A DNA stretch of 39,003 nucleotides from a virus. The position numbers were made by a program, and so were the translations under genes. Where the stretch lies: IMG/VR virus record IMGVR_UViG_3300027852_000766, positions 1-39,003 of that record; one strand, 5' to 3'. This document shows positions 2,644 through 38,516 of this stretch, piece by piece; the first letter of the stretch is position 1, and each line of letters starts with the position of its first letter. The notes below the pieces were generated by a model, which had not been told where the DNA came from, made no database searches, and saw only the letters and a list, made by a program, of their open reading frames with translations.

Positions 2644-3681
2644 TCACGATATCCCGTCACATTTCTCTTTGTTTTTAGCGGGGAAATTTCCGGATTGATA
2701 CGTGATTTTTTGGCACTCGGCCACCGCGAGTGCCAGCTCGCATTTGGATTGTGGTTCCACCGACATCTCAGCCATCAACATCCTCCACGCCCTTGCCGCA
2801 GCCAATGGGACCACGCCGTTACCGGCTGCAGAGGATCGGTCCATCCCGAAGGCCAGCCCATGATCCAATCGGTGAAGGAGGGGTTCAACTGCAAGATGGC
2901 CTTTCCCTTCTCGTGCTTGTTCCCAGGCAACAAAGTCACCAGGCATCGGGGCGAAGAGGCCAATGGGCCCGGCGTCCATCCCGTCGCTGACAACAGATCC
3001 CACATCATCACCCAAGCAATCGCCGCCTGCCTCAACCCCGCTTGGCTGCCCTTTTGGTTTTGATCCACCACAAACCGAAACCGCCCGGGCCCCATGCGGA
3101 CCGACACCCGGTTGCCGCCCATCTTGAACGTCGGCGTGGGCCAGAATGAACATCCTTTCTCTGAGGTGAGACCCGCCGACTTCCGCCGCTGATACGACGC
3201 ACGCTGCAACCCGATAGCCCATGTCCTGAAGGTCTCGGGTGACGTCTTGGAAGCCAAGGGTGAGATGGCCGGGGACGTTTTCAAAGAAGCAGTATTCGGG
3301 CCGCACTTCGTCGATGATCCGGGCGACATCTGGCCACAAGTGCCGGGGGTCATCTTTGCCTTTGCGGCTGCCTGACAGTGTGAACGGCTGACAGGGATAA
3401 CCGGCAGAGATGATATGAACGCGTCCGCGCCACGGTCTGCCATCGAAGGATTTGAGATCGTCCCAAATAGGTGCCGAACCCAAGGACGCGTCTGCCATCC
3501 GTGCCACGAGAGTGGCCGCGGCGAAACTGTTTCGCTCGACATAACACACAGCTCGATATCCGGGTTCTGCGATATGTAATCCGAGATCCAATCCTCCGAC
3601 ACCGGAGCAAAGGCTGATTCCGCGAAAGTCGTCAGGCTGGTTTGGGGTACGAAGAGCCACACTGTGGGTCCTTTCCGTCAC
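2644..3681 (-). CDS. Phage C5-cytosine DNA methyltransferase
   Basis: The 345-residue protein has the ordered motifs of C5 methyltransferases: motif I SLCSGVGGLDLGL (residues 23-35), motif IV GYPCQPF with the catalytic Cys97, motif VI ENV (134-136), motif VIII RERMFI (174-179), and motif X AAGNGVVPLAAARAW (285-299). The region between VIII and X, where target recognition lies, is about 110 residues. The start is GTG (3681), inside the 3' end of the upstream Com-like gene; a second GTG at 3660 is an alternative. It would methylate phage or host DNA against restriction, the job Mom does in phage Mu. Specificity cannot be read from the sequence. A second reading frame overlaps it (separate entry). 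Confidence 0.93.
   Translation of the reverse strand: MTERTHSVALRTPNQPDDFRGISLCSGVGGLDLGLHIAEPGYRAVCYVERNSFAAATLVARMADASLGSAPIWDDLKSFDGRPWRGRVHIISAGYPCQPFTLSGSRKGKDDPRHLWPDVARIIDEVRPEYCFFENVPGHLTLGFQDVTRDLQDMGYRVAACVVSAAEVGGSHLRERMFILAHADVQDGRQPGVGPHGARAVSVCGGSKPKGQPSGVEAGGDCLGDDVGSVVSDGMDAGPIGLFAPMPGDFVAWEQAREGKGHLAVEPLLHRLDHGLAFGMDRSSAAGNGVVPLAAARAWRMLMAEMSVEPQSKCELALAVAECQKITYQSGNFPAKNKEKCDGIS
2775..3662 (-). CDS. Possible overlapping +1-frame ORF inside the methyltransferase gene
   Basis: An 888-nt open frame in the +1 register relative to the methyltransferase encodes 295 residues from a GTG; an internal ATG lies at 3542. Its sequence is not random-looking. It contains FWPTPTF about two-thirds along and QLNPSFTDWIMGWPSGWTDP near the C-terminus, motifs that I recall from small proteins encoded beside phage cytosine methyltransferases. 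The latter motif is antiphase to the methyltransferase motif just before AAGNGVVP. Long shadow frames are common in this GC-rich DNA (there are others of about 280-350 codons), so this is a candidate only. Codon-level conservation would decide. Confidence 0.35.
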   Translation of the reverse strand: MWLFVPQTSLTTFAESAFAPVSEDWISDYISQNPDIELCVMSSETVSPRPLSWHGWQTRPWVRHLFGTISNPSMADRGADAFISSLPVIPVSRSHCQAAAKAKMTPGTCGQMSPGSSTKCGPNTASLKTSPAISPLASKTSPETFRTWAIGLQRASYQRRKSAGLTSEKGCSFWPTPTFKMGGNRVSVRMGPGRFRFVVDQNQKGSQAGLRQAAIAWVMMWDLLSATGWTPGPLASSPRCLVTLLPGNKHEKGKAILQLNPSFTDWIMGWPSGWTDPLQPVTAWSHWLRQGRGGC

Positions 3682-3835
3682 GCTCTGGGCGCTTGGGTGA
3701 AGGGCTCTTGAGTGGCCTCAGAATATTCATGGCCCGACAACGCGGGCATTTGATTGTCAGGATGCCGGCTAGGGCATCTTGCTCGGAACAGAATAGCAGG
3801 CGGTTGCATGCACAGCAACGCGTTTGGACTTGCAT
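3632..3835 (-). CDS. com: Com-like zinc-finger translational regulator
   Basis: The 67-residue protein has two CxxC pairs: RCCACNRLLF (Cys7, Cys10) and IKCPRCRAMNI (Cys30, Cys33). This is the same layout and wording as phage Mu Com (CxxCNKLLF then CPRC). Mu Com is a zinc protein that binds the com-mom mRNA and opens the mom start site for translation. Here the gene overlaps the start of the methyltransferase gene by 50 nt, so it probably controls that gene in the same way. The ATG at 3835 is preferred over an upstream TTG; no strong Shine-Dalgarno sequence is seen. The basic tail after residue 40 fits RNA binding. Confidence 0.88.
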   Translation of the reverse strand: MQVQTRCCACNRLLFCSEQDALAGILTIKCPRCRAMNILRPLKSPSPKRPERDGKDPQCGSSYPKPA

Positions 3836-3865
3836 CGGCAAGGCGAATCACCACAGCTTGGCCGT

Positions 3866-3877
3866 CCCTGATCAGGG
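3866..3877. promoter_or_regulatory. 12-bp perfect palindrome upstream of com
   Basis: CCCTGATCAGGG is a perfect palindrome 31 nt upstream of the com start. A GANTC site (GAATC, 3845-3849), the CcrM target in alphaproteobacteria, lies between it and com. In phage Mu the mom promoter is controlled by methylated GATC sites; whether this palindrome is an operator here is inference. Confidence 0.4.
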
Positions 3878-3937
3878 TGGGCGCGGCCTTAAGCTTGTCT
3901 GGGTCGGCGGGGGCTCTGTCCAAAGTTTCCCCGTGTT

Positions 3938-3976
3938 GGGGGGTGTTGACGCACCCCCCGACCGCCTGAGTGGCGG
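3938..3976 (-). terminator. Tandem hairpins after the tail operon
   Basis: Two hairpins follow the stop of the helix-hairpin-helix gene. CCGCC/GGCGG (3962-3966 with 3972-3976) has a 5-nt loop. GGGGGGTG (3938-3945) pairs perfectly with CACCCCCC (3952-3959) around a 6-nt loop. No T tract follows, so they may terminate weakly or act as an attenuator separating the tail genes from com and the methyltransferase. Confidence 0.5.
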
Positions 3977-3977
3977 C

Positions 3978-4544
3978 CTAGATCGGGGTCAGGTTGTGAG
4001 CCCTCAAGGCTGCGGTGGAATGGATCCGTGCCGAGCCGGGGGACGTGCGCGGGCCTGTGATTGCCAAGCCTTCCCAGCCCGCGATGGTCGAGGGGCCAAT
4101 GCCTGAGACCTGATCCAGTTCGGCCAAATCGGCCCATGGGCGGCGGGCGATGATCGCCGAGGCCAAAGCTGGGCCGATGTCGGGCAAGGTTTGCAGGCGG
4201 GCGCTGTCGGCGGAATTGAGGTCGACGAATTGCACAGCATCGAGCGGCGATCCGGGCGCTGAGATTTTTAGACCATTCAAAACCAGCGCCACGTCAGTCT
4301 CAGTTAGCCCAAACTCGGACCACTCGACGGGCGGCAAGCTGCCCCCAAGCGCGGCCATAAGCGTCTCGAAAAAGCCCTCAGTCGCGTAGGTGTGCGCGCC
4401 GAAATGGGTCACGGTTTCACCGTTGGATGACAGCGGGACGGTGTAAGTCACATCCCCCGGCTTGGCGTGGTCGAGCGCAATTGAAAGTTTATCGGCCGTC
4501 TCGCGCAGCGCGGCATTAATGATCAGGACAGTTGAGTACCGCAT
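3978..4544 (-). CDS. Helix-hairpin-helix protein at the end of the tail operon
   Basis: The 188-residue product has an N-terminal part without recognised family (MRYSTVLIINAALRETADKL onward) and a C-terminal ComEA-type double helix-hairpin-helix: DLNSADSARLQTLPDIGPALASAI, then LDQVSGIGPSTIAGWEG. Such motifs bind DNA backbone without sequence preference. The ATG overlaps the stop of the large fibre gene (TGATG), so the two are co-translated. The position is one where Mu-like phages keep fibre-assembly genes. An HhH module there is unusual; it could touch DNA or simply mediate protein contacts. The function is unknown. Confidence 0.8.
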   Translation of the reverse strand: MRYSTVLIINAALRETADKLSIALDHAKPGDVTYTVPLSSNGETVTHFGAHTYATEGFFETLMAALGGSLPPVEWSEFGLTETDVALVLNGLKISAPGSPLDAVQFVDLNSADSARLQTLPDIGPALASAIIARRPWADLAELDQVSGIGPSTIAGWEGLAITGPRTSPGSARIHSTAALRAHNLTPI

Positions 4545-31960: not shown

Positions 31961-34063
31961 TCATCCGAAATACGCATCCCCGAAGTCCGACCAGAGCGTG
32001 CGCTCTGCGCGGTATTCGGCGGTGGATTGATAGCCGGTCAGCCATTTTGTCTGCTCGGCCGTGATGCTCTCTCCGGCCTCCAACATCTGCTCCAGATCAA
32101 GCGCCCGCTTGAACCGCTCGCGCGGGGTCTCTGTCGGTTTGGGCGCTGTGCGGCGGGCCGACAGATCGGTCACCAACGCTGCCTGTGCCGCGTCCAGTGC
32201 CGTGTTTGGAGCCACGTTTGGTGCGGTGGCTCTTGGCTTGACCGAAGGCACCAACTTGACCACTTTGGATTGCGGCTTTGACGCAGGCTCCAATCCGGCA
32301 ACCACGTCCAGATCAACGCCCAACTCGCGGGCGGTCAGGTTGCGGTGCGCCTTGAGGGCCTTGCGCTCTGCCTTGAGCCAATCGCCACGCGCTTTGGCGT
32401 GCGACCGCGCATCCACGACCGACATGAAGCCCGCCGCGACTTTGCACGCAGCCTCGCCCAAATAGCGGTTGTCGGCGCTGTAAACAAAGATCCCGGCCTG
32501 CAGGTCTGCGGGATCAAACCGCGCAATCACACGCTCGCCCGCGATGTCGTGCATCCAGTCTGACCAGTACTCATTGCCAGCGAATTTAAGCAGACCCGAG
32601 GAGGAATGCGCGCGCAGAAGTTCACTGCCCATCAGCCACAGGCGGCGCTGCGCCTCGGTGGCCTTGCGGATCGGCGCTCGCTCATAGCTCTCTGCAAAGA
32701 CCTCGGCAAAGGATCGGCCATAGGCCACCTCGGAACGCCGACCTTGGCGCATATTGTGCTCTTCGATGCCCTCGCCAACGACCCGCAGGAAGGTGTCAAA
32801 AGGAATGGCGCGGCTGCCGTAGTCTTCGGGCTTGGCGTCGGGCCGGTTGCCGGTCCATGCGCCATCAAAGCGCGGGTCCTTAGCGATGGCATCGCACATA
32901 TCGCGAAACGCCCGCTCAATCGGCTTTGACTGACCGGCGTAAGGCGTGGCCCAATGGATCTCGCAGCCCAGTGAGACGAACAGACCCGGAAGATCGTCTT
33001 CGCGTACCTTGAACCGGAACCGCGTCTTCGCGCCGCCGGTGATCATCTTGGCCGCGAACTCGCGTCCGTTGTCCAAAAGCACGTGTTCGGGAATGCCCCA
33101 GTCTTCGACCATATCGCCCGCCGCCAGCTTCACGCTGTGCGAATTGGCGGTCAGGTCCAGACGCCATGACAACACGCGACCCGAATAGACGTCTTGGAAC
33201 GCCACCATCTGCGGGCGCACCGGCGTGTCGATCCCCGGCCATTTCACGAACACGTCGAACCGGTGATAGTCGCCGTTTACCACTTCCAGCGCATGCAGCG
33301 CGGTCTTGTCACGGGTCTGCGGCGGATAAAGGCGCTTGAGCGCGTCGATACCCTTGCGGGCCAGCACTTGCACAGGCTGGCTCACACGTTCGTCCAGACG
33401 CCGCCTCAGAGTGCGCTCTGGCGCGACTTCCCATCGCTTGTCGCGGGCGACCATCACCGCGCGGCGATAACAGCTCGAGAACGATGGTCCGGCCTTGCGC
33501 AGATAATCCGACCTGATCCAGTCATAGAAAGCCTCGTCAAATTCGCGCTTGGTGGCCTTGCGGGCAGCCGCGCGGTGGCGCGGTGCCAAGGCTGGAAGCC
33601 GGTCGTCGGCGCGAACGCCCTCAACCATGCCAAGCCAGTTCCACAAGGTCCGTGGTGAGACGCCTTCGGCGGCTGCAACTTCGCGCACGGCCAAGTCACG
33701 CGACAGATGCACCTCCAATGCCTCGACCGACTGCACACACCGCAGGCGCACTCGCGTGCGGCACTGCACCGCGATGGGCAGACCTTCAAACCATTCCCAC
33801 ATCTCGCCCCGATCCGGCGCAGGTGCGGGCGCACTCGCCACGGCCAGCATGGCTTTGCGTGCGGCCAGCGGTAGCGCCGTCCAATGATATTCCCAGCCGC
33901 CCCCACGGCCCGAGCGACGACGCGCAAGCGCCGGGTTTGCCCGCAGATTGATGCGCTTCACCCAGCGATCAATGCTCTGCTGTGTGCCAGGCATATCCGG
34001 CAATCCGGCATTGGCCAGCTCGTTGGCCGTCCACCAGAGTTGTGTGGGGGCGAGGTCTGTCAT
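31961..34063 (-). CDS. MuA-like DDE transposase
   Basis: The 700-residue protein has an N-terminal Mu DNA-binding domain (LWWTANELANAGLPDMPGTQQSIDRWVKRINL), HTH repeats, and a catalytic core with Asp265 (VVNGDYHRFDVFVKW), Asp331 (VLLDNGREFAAK) and Glu383 (YAGQSKPIERAFRDM), matching the DDE of MuA. The domain GRRSEVAYGRSFAEVFAESYERAPIRKATEAQRR follows, then a C-terminal region for MuB contact. It carries out strand transfer for integration and replication. The start overlaps the ParB-like stop by 4 nt. Confidence 0.97.
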   Translation of the reverse strand: MTDLAPTQLWWTANELANAGLPDMPGTQQSIDRWVKRINLRANPALARRRSGRGGGWEYHWTALPLAARKAMLAVASAPAPAPDRGEMWEWFEGLPIAVQCRTRVRLRCVQSVEALEVHLSRDLAVREVAAAEGVSPRTLWNWLGMVEGVRADDRLPALAPRHRAAARKATKREFDEAFYDWIRSDYLRKAGPSFSSCYRRAVMVARDKRWEVAPERTLRRRLDERVSQPVQVLARKGIDALKRLYPPQTRDKTALHALEVVNGDYHRFDVFVKWPGIDTPVRPQMVAFQDVYSGRVLSWRLDLTANSHSVKLAAGDMVEDWGIPEHVLLDNGREFAAKMITGGAKTRFRFKVREDDLPGLFVSLGCEIHWATPYAGQSKPIERAFRDMCDAIAKDPRFDGAWTGNRPDAKPEDYGSRAIPFDTFLRVVGEGIEEHNMRQGRRSEVAYGRSFAEVFAESYERAPIRKATEAQRRLWLMGSELLRAHSSSGLLKFAGNEYWSDWMHDIAGERVIARFDPADLQAGIFVYSADNRYLGEAACKVAAGFMSVVDARSHAKARGDWLKAERKALKAHRNLTARELGVDLDVVAGLEPASKPQSKVVKLVPSVKPRATAPNVAPNTALDAAQAALVTDLSARRTAPKPTETPRERFKRALDLEQMLEAGESITAEQTKWLTGYQSTAEYRAERTLWSDFGDAYFG

Positions 34064-34914
34064 CCCAGCGATCCCTCGTACATCAGCGCCTCAAGAACGG
34101 CACCGTGATCGCGCACGAACCGGCGACGCGCCTCCTTCGGGGCACGAGACCAAGCGGCTTTAAGTGCCTTCAAAGCGGTTTCAACGGGGTCTTGAACCGG
34201 TGCCGCGATGCCTTGCGATACCTTGTAGCCGCGCCGCGCTTCGGATGCGGTTTTGGCGCGGCCTTCGGACAGAGCGCCGACGACCTCATAGCGTTCAACC
34301 GTCTCGCCGATCTTGGCGATCTCGCCCAAGTCCTTGAGCGAGACTTGGCGCGGGGCCTTGCGCAGCATCTGAATATCGCGCGGATCAAGGGTCGATCCAG
34401 CTGCAATCAGGCGCCGCACATGCCGGTCGGTCATACCGAATTTTTCGGCAGTCGCGGCGGCAAACGATCCAACGGACATCGTGTCCGTTTGATTTTGAAA
34501 GCCCACGCTCTTTCGGTCTCCGCCTTGCTTGGTCTCAGGATGCAACCGCTCATAGACCCGCTTGCGCTCCGCCAAGAAAAGTGCCGTGTCGAGCGGGTTC
34601 AGCTCGGCTCCGGCGATATTGTCGTCGATCTCCATCAGCCGCGACCAATCGTCGGTCACATCGGCCCAGACCTTCGCTTCGATCTCGTCCCAGCCCAATC
34701 GCTTAGCGGCTTCCAGTCGGTGACCGCCCGCGATCAGCACCAATGCACCGCCCTTTTTCTGGCGCACGTGGATCGCATCTTTCATGATGCCGGTCTCGGC
34801 AATGGACGCCAGCAGGCTTTCCACGCCAGCCTCAGAGACAGGGCGCAAACGGCCAGCCGCCTCGATCTCGGCGACCTTTACGCGGTCGATCTTTGTCAGC
34901 CTTGGGTCAGCCAT
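34060..34914 (-). CDS. ParB/Srx-fold nuclease-like protein
   Basis: The 284-residue protein has a ParB-N domain: VESLLASIAETGIMKDAIHV, LIAGGHRLEAAKRLGWDEIEAKVW with GGHR (63-66) in place of GERR, and then an HTH region (SVGSFAAATAEKFGMTDRHVRRLIAAG). Such proteins bind NTP and DNA. Its place directly before MuA suggests a role in phage DNA handling or regulation. A TTG two codons upstream is possible, but the ATG at 34914 is preferred. Confidence 0.88.
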   Translation of the reverse strand: MADPRLTKIDRVKVAEIEAAGRLRPVSEAGVESLLASIAETGIMKDAIHVRQKKGGALVLIAGGHRLEAAKRLGWDEIEAKVWADVTDDWSRLMEIDDNIAGAELNPLDTALFLAERKRVYERLHPETKQGGDRKSVGFQNQTDTMSVGSFAAATAEKFGMTDRHVRRLIAAGSTLDPRDIQMLRKAPRQVSLKDLGEIAKIGETVERYEVVGALSEGRAKTASEARRGYKVSQGIAAPVQDPVETALKALKAAWSRAPKEARRRFVRDHGAVLEALMYEGSLG

Positions 34915-34916
34915 GC

Positions 34917-35243
34917 TCAAACCCCCGCCGCACGGCGCGGTTTGCGGCCGTCTTGGCTTCCGGCAAATCCGGTGCCTGCCATAGGATCAGCAGACCCGCG
35001 ACAACGGGCACACAGCCGATTGTGAAAACCTTCGGAATGAAACTCGGTGCGGCAGCACATGCAGGCACGGGTCCGGCCATTTCCATCGGCGGCTGCTTGC
35101 AGAGCATCACACTTTTTCTCGGCGAGGCTCTTGTAGCCTGGACCAAAGACGCAATGGCCGTCTGGGTCGATGACAACATACGCCCCGTCTTGTTGCATCA
35201 CGCGGTGGCGGTTGCTTGGTTTTGGCAGGTTGCAATCTTTCAT
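34917..35243 (-). CDS. Small zinc-ribbon protein
   Basis: The 108-residue protein begins MKDCNLPKPSNRHRVMQQDGAYVVIDPDG and contains CMCC...CARC (about residues 61-83), a likely zinc ribbon. No family is recognised. The ATG at 35243 overlaps the upstream small gene by 4 nt. The same frame extends further upstream, but that part covers the small gene. Confidence 0.72.
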   Translation of the reverse strand: MKDCNLPKPSNRHRVMQQDGAYVVIDPDGHCVFGPGYKSLAEKKCDALQAAADGNGRTRACMCCRTEFHSEGFHNRLCARCRGSADPMAGTGFAGSQDGRKPRRAAGV

Positions 35244-35790: not shown

Positions 35791-36462
35791 ATGTTGAACG
35801 CTTCCGAGATATATGAGCTGATTGAAACGAGGCGGCGTGAGCTAGGTCTCAGCCAAGCTGCGATTGGGCTGATTGCGTTTGGCAAAGAGGACAACACCGC
35901 AATCCAGAGCATCAAGAAAGGCTCGGCACCCTCGGTCGAGCGCATGGCGGCAATCGCAAAAGCTTTGGACTTAGACTTCTATTTGGGGCCACGACGAGAT
36001 CCGCATGCGCCACCTCCAGCCCCCATCGAGATTGACGCGCAAGAATTTGCCACTGTGCTGCGCGTCGATGCCGAGGCCAGCGCCGGTCCAGGTAGGCTGA
36101 ACGGCGACGCCCAGGTCATTGGCTCTCTTGCGTTTCGGCGCGATTGGCTGCGGGATCATGGCGTGAAGCCAGACAACGCTCTGCTCGTCACCGTGACGGG
36201 CGATAGTATGGAGCCGCGTATCACCGCCGGGGATCTGGTGCTCGTGGACCTGTCGCCGACGGCCATCGAGAACGGCCATCTCTACCTCTTCAACGATGCC
36301 GACGGCGAAACCCGGATCAAACGCCTCCACCGCCTTGGCGCACGCACCGTGGCATTGGTTTCCGACAACCCAGACCATCCACCCGAACTGCGCAGCGGCG
36401 TCGACGCCGAGCGCATCAAAGTCCTTGGCCAAGTGATTTGGTCCGGACACAACTGGGCGTAG
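35791..36462 (+). CDS. Phage repressor, S24 (LexA-like) type
   Basis: The 223-residue protein has an N-terminal HTH (IETRRRELGLSQAAIGLIAFG, residues 11-31) and a C-terminal S24 peptidase: LLVTVTGDSMEPRITAGDLVLVDL with Ser139 and Lys177 (DGETRIKRLH) as dyad. It keeps the prophage silent and probably cleaves itself when RecA is activated, giving SOS induction. Mu itself uses a different repressor, so this phage links its transposition to DNA damage. Confidence 0.93.
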   Translation: MLNASEIYELIETRRRELGLSQAAIGLIAFGKEDNTAIQSIKKGSAPSVERMAAIAKALDLDFYLGPRRDPHAPPPAPIEIDAQEFATVLRVDAEASAGPGRLNGDAQVIGSLAFRRDWLRDHGVKPDNALLVTVTGDSMEPRITAGDLVLVDLSPTAIENGHLYLFNDADGETRIKRLHRLGARTVALVSDNPDHPPELRSGVDAERIKVLGQVIWSGHNWA

Positions 36463-36770
36463 AATTGCTGCTTTCGGCTCATAGCAGACATTGACCAAGA
36501 GTTGAGCAGGCTACAGTGCGCTCTCTACCATAGCTGCCGTTTATGACAGGGCGACAATCTGATGGCTTGAACGACCGTAGCGCTTGGCAAGCTGTTGACC
36601 CCGCTGAACTTGCTAGAAAAAACACATTTCCAATCGAGCCGAGCTTGGTTAGGGTTTCAATCAACTTAGAATTGATTGGCAAGAAGTTTCACTATGAGGC
36701 TACGAAACCTGCCAAACCAGACGCGTGATATTTTGACGCATTGCATTGCCTGCTGACCACCGGAGCACCC
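36463..36770. other. Intergenic stretch between repressor and OLD gene
   Basis: No convincing gene is seen. One 61-codon frame (36543-36728) lacks a ribosome binding site and recognisable motifs. Short inverted words (GCTGCT...AGCAG, near 36465-36486) could terminate the repressor mRNA. The phage end on the repressor side could lie here if the OLD gene is host DNA. Confidence 0.5.
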
Positions 36771-38516
36771 ATGCCAACTCACCTCAAAGCCCTTTCGTTG
36801 CAGTTCTACCGGGGGATTGGTCCAGACAAGCAAGTTATCGGGCCGTTTTCAGAAATGAACCTGTTCATCGGTGCCAACAACTCCGGAAAATCAACTGTTT
36901 TGAACTTCATTCGAGATAGGCTTCCGTTTGTCAAAGACGCAAAACAAACTCAGCGGCTCGGCCCCGCAGAAGACTTCAGAGGTGAAGTGACGGGTGCTCT
37001 GACTGCCGCAGTTGGAGTTCCGGTGGCTGAATTCATTTCTCGCGTTGAGCATCGTTGGGGAGGCTTTCATCAGCGATCCGATTTGCTGGGGATGATTGAA
37101 ACTATTGTAGAAAGCCTGTCCATTTATGGTTTTGTTTGGGTTGCTGCGGACATCGGAGAAGACAGTCGTTTCGAACCGGATTTTGATGTTTCCCAGCTCA
37201 CCGGGCTTTTCGATGACAAAGCCTGGAACGTCTTGTGGCAGAGGCTAACCGATCGGCGCGGGGGCGGGGTGGATAGCTGGGTAAGGGAAACTTTGGCGTA
37301 CATTCTCAGGGCACAAGTCGTTGCATTCCCTCATGTCGCCCATATTCCTGCTGAGCGAGATTTGGGGGAAGGAGCCACTGGCTTTCAAATACGCAACGAA
37401 AAGACACTCATTGACGAGTTGGCAGAACTACAAAGCCCGGATCATGATCGACGTGAAGACAGATTGTTGTTCGACAATCTTACAAAATTCGTTCGGGTTG
37501 TGACGGGCAAGGACGACGTGACGATAGAGGTTCCTCACGACAGAAAGCACGTTCTGGTCCACATAGACAATAAGGTGCTTCCATTGTTTCGGCTTGGAAC
37601 CGGTATTCAAGAAGTCATTCTAATCGCGGCATTCTGCACCATCCATGACAACGTAATCGTTTGCATAGAAGAACCGGAAATCCACCTGCACCCAGTACTG
37701 CAGCGCAAGCTTATCCGTTACCTTAGAGAATTCACCAACAACCAGTATTTCATCGCGACGCACTCTGCCGCGTTTATCGACACGCCCGATGCCTCAGTAT
37801 TCCGGGTTGAGAATGACGGAGTACAATCGCGAATAACATCGGCCATTCATCGAGGCGATCTGAAGCAAATATGTGATGATCTAGGGTACCGTGCCTCGGA
37901 TATTCTACAGTCAAATGCGGTGGTTTGGGTCGAGGGACCTTCCGACCGCATTTACGTGCGCCATTGGCTAAAAGATCTTGCGCCTGAACTAACTGAAGGT
38001 ATTCACTATACCATCATGTTCTATGGCGGCGCTTTGGTTCGCCACTTGGGGGCGAATGAAGTAGTTGATGAGGAAAGCCTGAAAGAGTTCATAGACTTGC
38101 GAGCGCTGAACCAAAACATGGCGATAATCCTCGACAGCGACAAAGATCGTCCGAGGGCCAGGCTGAAACCTGCCGTGAACCGCCTAAAGGAAGAACTCTC
38201 TGCCGGGCGCGGGTTAGTTTGGATCACGAAGGGGCGCGAAGTCGAAAACTATGTAGACCCTAACCTCTTGCACGAGGCGCTAAAGGATATTCATTCATCC
38301 TCTTACAAGGGTGCCGATAAAACCGGCCCGTATGACCACGCCTTCTATTTCGAACGGAAAAAACCGGACCGCAATGGCAACACGATTTACAAGGCGGCAG
38401 ACAAGGTGAGAGTTGCTGGGTATGTGTCTAAGAAATCGGCCAACCTAGACATTCTCGATTTGAAAGCACGAACTCGCGAGTTGGTCGAAATGATCCAAAA
38501 AGCAAATGGTCCGTAA
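36771..38516 (+). CDS. OLD-family ATPase/TOPRIM nuclease (defence-type)
   Basis: The 581-residue protein has an ABC-type ATPase: GANNSGKST (34-42), CIEEPEIHLHP (about 298-308) and ATHSA (about 329-333). It is followed by a TOPRIM domain: VVWVEGPSDRIYV (Glu388) and AIILDSDKDR (Asp455, Asp457). This is the OLD nuclease layout, used against phages by P2 OLD and Gabija GajA. No UvrD-like GajB follows, so it is probably a single-gene OLD. The ATG at 36771 has GGAG 7 nt before it. GC is low (27 of 60 bases at 36841-36900), pointing to separate acquisition. Confidence 0.92.
   Translation: MPTHLKALSLQFYRGIGPDKQVIGPFSEMNLFIGANNSGKSTVLNFIRDRLPFVKDAKQTQRLGPAEDFRGEVTGALTAAVGVPVAEFISRVEHRWGGFHQRSDLLGMIETIVESLSIYGFVWVAADIGEDSRFEPDFDVSQLTGLFDDKAWNVLWQRLTDRRGGGVDSWVRETLAYILRAQVVAFPHVAHIPAERDLGEGATGFQIRNEKTLIDELAELQSPDHDRREDRLLFDNLTKFVRVVTGKDDVTIEVPHDRKHVLVHIDNKVLPLFRLGTGIQEVILIAAFCTIHDNVIVCIEEPEIHLHPVLQRKLIRYLREFTNNQYFIATHSAAFIDTPDASVFRVENDGVQSRITSAIHRGDLKQICDDLGYRASDILQSNAVVWVEGPSDRIYVRHWLKDLAPELTEGIHYTIMFYGGALVRHLGANEVVDEESLKEFIDLRALNQNMAIILDSDKDRPRARLKPAVNRLKEELSAGRGLVWITKGREVENYVDPNLLHEALKDIHSSSYKGADKTGPYDHAFYFERKKPDRNGNTIYKAADKVRVAGYVSKKSANLDILDLKARTRELVEMIQKANGP

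Follow-up and report, generated by a model that had tools for sequence, protein, structure and literature searches.

A Com-linked cytosine methyltransferase gene of Mu-like phages with a second, overprinted reading frame

What does a Com regulator adjoin, and what might it control, when its partner gene is not mom? The question is raised by a Mu-like prophage in which com lies next to a gene for a C5-cytosine methyltransferase. The window analyzed is the entire virus record of 39,003 bases. It encodes a MuA transposase (31961-34063; PF02914, E 2.9e-46) and an S24 repressor (35791-36462; Peptidase_S24) in a Mu-type gene order, which identifies a Mu-like transposable phage; com and the methyltransferase gene, on the minus strand, come after the tail genes. 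A gene for a ParB-like protein (34060-34920) adjoins that for the MuA transposase. The flanks (653-2254 and 36741-38516) encode a Beta-protein (PF14350), an IrrE-like peptidase (PF06114) and an AAA ATPase with weak similarity to PtuA; these genes are likely host DNA surrounding the prophage, and are possibly defence genes.

Com and its exchanged partners

A sequence-only reading of this DNA had placed a Com-like zinc finger upstream of a C5 methyltransferase, and profile searches bear this out. The com gene (minus strand, 3632..3835; ATG at 3835, stop at 3632) encodes a 67-aa protein with a two-CxxC zinc ribbon (CCACNRLLF...CPRC) that scores 28.2 bits against PF10122, for which the curated cut-off is 22.9, and matches PHROG 6417, ‘translational regulator’, with an E value of 3.7e-12. 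The methyltransferase (minus strand, 2644..3660; 338 aa from its conserved GTG) matches PF00145 (E 3.7e-30), M.HhaI by profile (E 1.4e-20) and M.HaeIII/M.HhaI by fold, and C5 motifs I, IV (PCQ), VI (ENV), VIII and X are present in its frame.

The two genes do overlap, as had been stated, but the figure of 50 nt came from the longest ORF (GTG 3681); the sole start present in all 49 relatives is a GTG located 29 nt before the com stop (window position 3660), and the overlap counted from this conserved start is 29 nt. The GTG is preceded by a Shine-Dalgarno-like GGAAAGGA (3669..3676, minus strand), the position of which is conserved in many alpha-proteobacterial loci. Across the Com-C5 loci the methyltransferase start is located anywhere from 53 nt before to 22 nt after the com stop, and thus the two genes are not usually separate in homologues; an earlier com stop in several sphingomonad loci leaves the methyltransferase start up to 22 nt past it. 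What had been described as com overlapping one methyltransferase gene is, instead, com overlapping the twin starts of two overprinted genes. At its far end (2644-2740) the methyltransferase ORF of the window is ~35 codons longer than in relatives, and this extension is possibly read-through of the phage right end.

Com-C5 loci were gathered by querying viral contigs and species genomes with the methyltransferase and also with Com, giving about 50 non-redundant phage or prophage loci in Rhodobacteraceae, sphingomonads and others. Across phages, the partners of Com comprise Mom, D12 Dam, N6 and N4/N6 methyltransferases, ABC-GNAT proteins and C5 enzymes; genes of the N4/N6, D12 and Mom types are found downstream of Com in annotated phages. 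Within the Loktanella family Com is present in 12 of 397 genomes, with neighbours read as C5 (5), D12 (4) and ABC-GNAT (2), while partner-class set sizes outside this family cannot be read as frequencies, C5 having been one of the queries. The proposal that the regulatory cassette was kept while the modification gene was exchanged holds up, in that Com and an RNA element at the junction are common to loci with differing partners. On these comparisons, the modification gene has indeed been exchanged under Com, and cassettes with a C5 enzyme are widespread.

The pairing of Com with exchanged methyltransferases is already known in principle, since Pseudomonas phage B3 and Burkholderia phages KS5 and AP3 are annotated in this way; Mu-like FluMu/hia5 is another such case. 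In these Com-Dam and Com-N4/N6 cassettes (B3, KS5, AP3) Com also overlaps the exchanged methyltransferase, and the same AGG/GAGCCC/hairpin element occurs in most of them, but the enzymes are of the adenine or N4 type and are without an overprinted frame (control +1 frames contain 3-14 stops). No description of the C5 version was found in a literature search that covered few subscription papers. In L007, L004, L081, L083 and L085, Com lies ~120-190 nt upstream of a ~370-aa protein with an ABC-type ATPase part and a weak GNAT part (for L007, PF00005 with E 4.2e-9 and PHROG 11143, function unknown), which is a possible further Com-linked modification enzyme.

A second frame inside the methyltransferase gene

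The second of the overprinted genes, designated ALT, occupies the +1 frame of the methyltransferase gene (minus strand, 2775..3662) and would encode a protein of 295 aa with a match to PHROG 1008 (E 3.5e-17); stop depletion and synonymous constraint also mark it out. It begins 2 nt before the methyltransferase GTG, the two initiation codons forming a twin start, GTGTG (3658..3662, minus strand; ALT at 3662, methyltransferase at 3660). This twin start is present in 49 of 50 Com-C5 loci, and TGTGG at this position is invariant across the 44 that were aligned. Both frames extend for ~300 codons and end close together in most complete copies; at one locus (L120) both are disrupted.

Long open frames are frequent in GC-rich genes, and ALT could be a shadow frame of this kind, without a product, at a locus that is merely com plus a methyltransferase. 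Synonymous permutation, in which each gene retains its encoded protein and its codon usage, gives a 294-codon open +1 run in 1.6% of permutations of the window alone (P about 0.02), so that the window by itself is weak evidence for ALT and the case rests on comparison. Across 49 Com-C5 loci, which are related (counts are not independent events) and diverge to ~48% protein identity, there are 3 stops in the ALT frame where 139.6 are expected; the first three 60-codon blocks contain 0 stops, with 31.5, 39.4 and 31.5 expected. The three stops are single in-frame stops in L084, L102 and L024. Those of L024 and L102 are at the same Trp position, and in all three loci the remainder of ALT is conserved downstream of the stop.

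Rates by codon position also argue against a shadow frame. At 83% protein identity the methyltransferase diverges by 14.9, 7.1 and 15.4% at first, second and third positions, respectively, while third-position divergence is 0.511 in com-linked D12 control genes at 81% identity and 0.758 in the methyltransferase past the end of ALT; the third-position constraint therefore ends with ALT and is absent from control genes. In methyltransferase residues 181-220 the first positions are the most variable and the third positions the least, and thus ALT is the better conserved frame in this segment. The N-terminus of ALT, in turn, is conserved with variation at third codon positions.

A scan with the ALT alignment recovered many phages lacking Com in which ALT overlaps a methyltransferase in the same +1 relation. 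In 51 of these Com-less loci the twin start has the form NTG-N-ATG, with the methyltransferase first, and the ALT frame contains 8 stops (85.6 expected); third-position divergence is 0.138, as constrained as that of first positions. The double gene does not require Com, as it also occurs in these phages that lack the regulator. The two twin-start designs are independent, which is a further point against a shadow frame. That reading, which we consider very improbable, was rejected based on stop depletion, codon-position rates and the control genes; selection acting on both frames is evident from the sequence comparisons.

A candidate Com operator at the junction

The com/partner junction contains an element, TTGAGG(G)CC-GAGCCC-hairpin, that is common to several partner classes. 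Its order at the com 3' end is AGG, then GAGCCC, then a 4-bp hairpin with a loop of the form C..GA. On the minus strand of the window these correspond to TGAGGCC (3714..3720), in which AGG is the Arg codon after the Com ribbon, GAGCCC (3702..3707) and, still within com, the hairpin GCGC-CCAGA-GCGU (3680..3692). The Arg codon after the ribbon is AGG in 47/47 scored C5 com genes and in nearly all D12, ABC-GNAT, N6 and N4/N6 com genes, with the Mom class as the exception; among the remaining Arg codons of C5 com genes AGG is rare (33/359).

Conservation of the junction could reflect mere coding for Com or ALT, with no RNA operator, and structure is indeed absent when the junction is folded globally: RNAalifold over the full junction predicted no pairs, and the hairpin emerged only after anchoring on GAGCCC. 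However, the elements sit in different com reading frames (that of GAGCCC differs between com genes) and in com genes with different partners. Covariation was evaluated on 45 distinct homologous segments picked by loop anchors rather than pairing; 95.6% of cells are paired, 4/4 pairs have changes on both sides, and the covariation score is 0.462, compared with 0.111 when shuffled (0/500) and ≤0.105 when slid. We regard coding alone as a quite unlikely explanation. Of 104 loci tested, 81 have a hairpin of this kind. For these phages, the hairpin element is the leading candidate for a Com target.

The Mu com-mom system is similar in that the Com zinc ribbon overlaps the start of a late modification gene and a hairpin is located at the junction. 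It differs in the partner, which is Mom in Mu and a C5 methyltransferase plus ALT here, and in the hairpin, which in Mu is TCCCAC...GTGGGA at the mom start, over a GTG. We take this GTG to be the mom start, while the Mu record annotates a start further upstream.

Folding of the com-methyltransferase mRNA, a check suggested along with the sequence-only reading, gave a window junction no better than shuffles (z about 0); a strong start-sequestering fold in the window was rejected on this basis. Upstream of com, the two terminator-like hairpins (about 3938..3978, minus strand; fold z -2.4), the palindrome CCCTGATCAGGG (3866..3877) and the GAATC site (3845-3849) exist as described. The upstream regions of relatives do not support GANTC or GATC as a conserved control, with 39 GANTC sites observed vs. 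36.5 expected and only a mild enrichment of GATC (65 vs. 34). Control through GANTC (CcrM) was rejected because GANTC is not enriched in these regions.

A two-chain methyltransferase as the proposed product

Reading the motifs by eye places I-VIII and X in the main frame and a segment resembling motif IX in ALT. The C-terminal end of ALT, NPxFxDWxMGWPxGWTD, matches both AEFYEWLMGLPRGWVTD, which occupies the motif IX position in Graduation_47, a phage enzyme with a single frame, and FSEWMMGWDEGWV in gp91, which forms the second half of the split Blue7 enzyme. No motif IX was seen in the main frame, the structure model of which is good over most of motifs I-VIII and X, with most of residues 179-281 modelled below pLDDT 50; its fold matches cover ~170-210 columns. 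We infer that ALT is the motif IX chain, a subunit of the methyltransferase, and probably the missing recognition half of the enzyme.

ALT could also be a real protein unrelated to methylation (e.g., anti-restriction or regulatory). It has no match in Pfam, PDB sequences or PDB folds, and none by tblastn in the phages collection; its structure model is of low confidence (pLDDT 54), and the ALT and methyltransferase alignments are unrelated by profile comparison. The absence of Pfam, fold and PDB matches would fit an unrelated function, which nevertheless appears rather unlikely given that 40/40 ALT proteins match PHROG 1008, ‘DNA methyltransferase’, that a methyltransferase match occurs in the offset frame at the ALT loci of the scan, and that the C-terminus resembles motif IX. 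Alternatively, a single methyltransferase chain might be produced if ribosomes underwent programmed frameshifting, entering ALT to translate the recognition part and returning to the main frame for motif X. Such a chain would explain why constraint over residues 181-220 is mainly that of ALT, why the motif IX-like segment is in ALT, and why the main frame is predicted to be disordered at the ALT-dominated region; yet two shifts would be required, and the N-terminal half of ALT is equally stop-protected and has its own conserved start, making frameshifting an unlikely route.

For a subunit of the methyltransferase there are precedents. Lee, Kam and Shaw are said to have described, in 1995, a beta gene of M.EcoHK31I nested in the alpha gene in another frame. 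Likened by reported motifs rather than by sequence, M.EcoHK31I shows the same division of motifs over two chains; in contrast to it, ALT begins at a twin start, takes up almost the full length of the gene and is linked to phages and to Com. In M.EcoHK31I the large chain has motifs I-VIII and X and the second has motif IX (PMC3404938); less favourably for ALT as the recognition half, the same paper places the predicted recognition domain on the large chain. M.AquI and Blue7 gp92/gp91 are also C5 enzymes split over two chains, the second of which has the recognition part together with motif IX, but in Blue7 (L178:1189-2188) the two frames overlap only partly and the second chain bears motif X as well. 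Double coding over the full length of the gene, from twin starts, is a variation on the M.EcoHK31I kind. A literature search that covered few subscription papers found no such overlap in phage methyltransferases, and passages on M.BatI, a prophage C5 enzyme, mention nothing of a second chain.

We consider it fairly probable that the locus is a Com-controlled late DNA-modification cassette in which a twin-start double gene specifies a two-chain methyltransferase. Com would serve as a translational activator, as in Mu, probably binding the conserved hairpin element at the com 3' end and opening, or recruiting ribosomes to, the twin start codon just downstream. ALT would then be translated in the cell along with the main frame, and from the pair of chains a single cytosine methyltransferase would form, the marks of which would protect phage DNA from host restriction. 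To the fuller statement, that a heterodimeric methyltransferase is encoded twice over, both chains from a twin start under one Com-bound hairpin, and that the double coding recurs with and without Com, often with one frame annotated, we give an even chance.

If true, a same-strand overlap of ~300 codons at ~100 phage loci, both frames being under selection, would constitute a well-supported long overlapping gene in phages. Annotation and expression of phage C5 methyltransferases would have to change, and a clone made with recoded codons would lose the second chain. Separately from this, a covarying hairpin common to Com cassettes with unrelated enzymes would offer a direct handle on Com recognition and on re-use of the regulator when the modification gene is swapped.

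Annotated records often give one frame. The annotated ‘hypothetical protein’ of Sphingomonas paeninsulae (L264:1375-2466) is ALT, and the C5 methyltransferase frame is absent from the PLSDB gene table, although that table has gaps of its own. The annotations of Paenibacillus phage DevRi and coliphage K1ind1 include a shorter nested gene, the open run of which permutations match in only 0.02% and 0.08% of cases, respectively.
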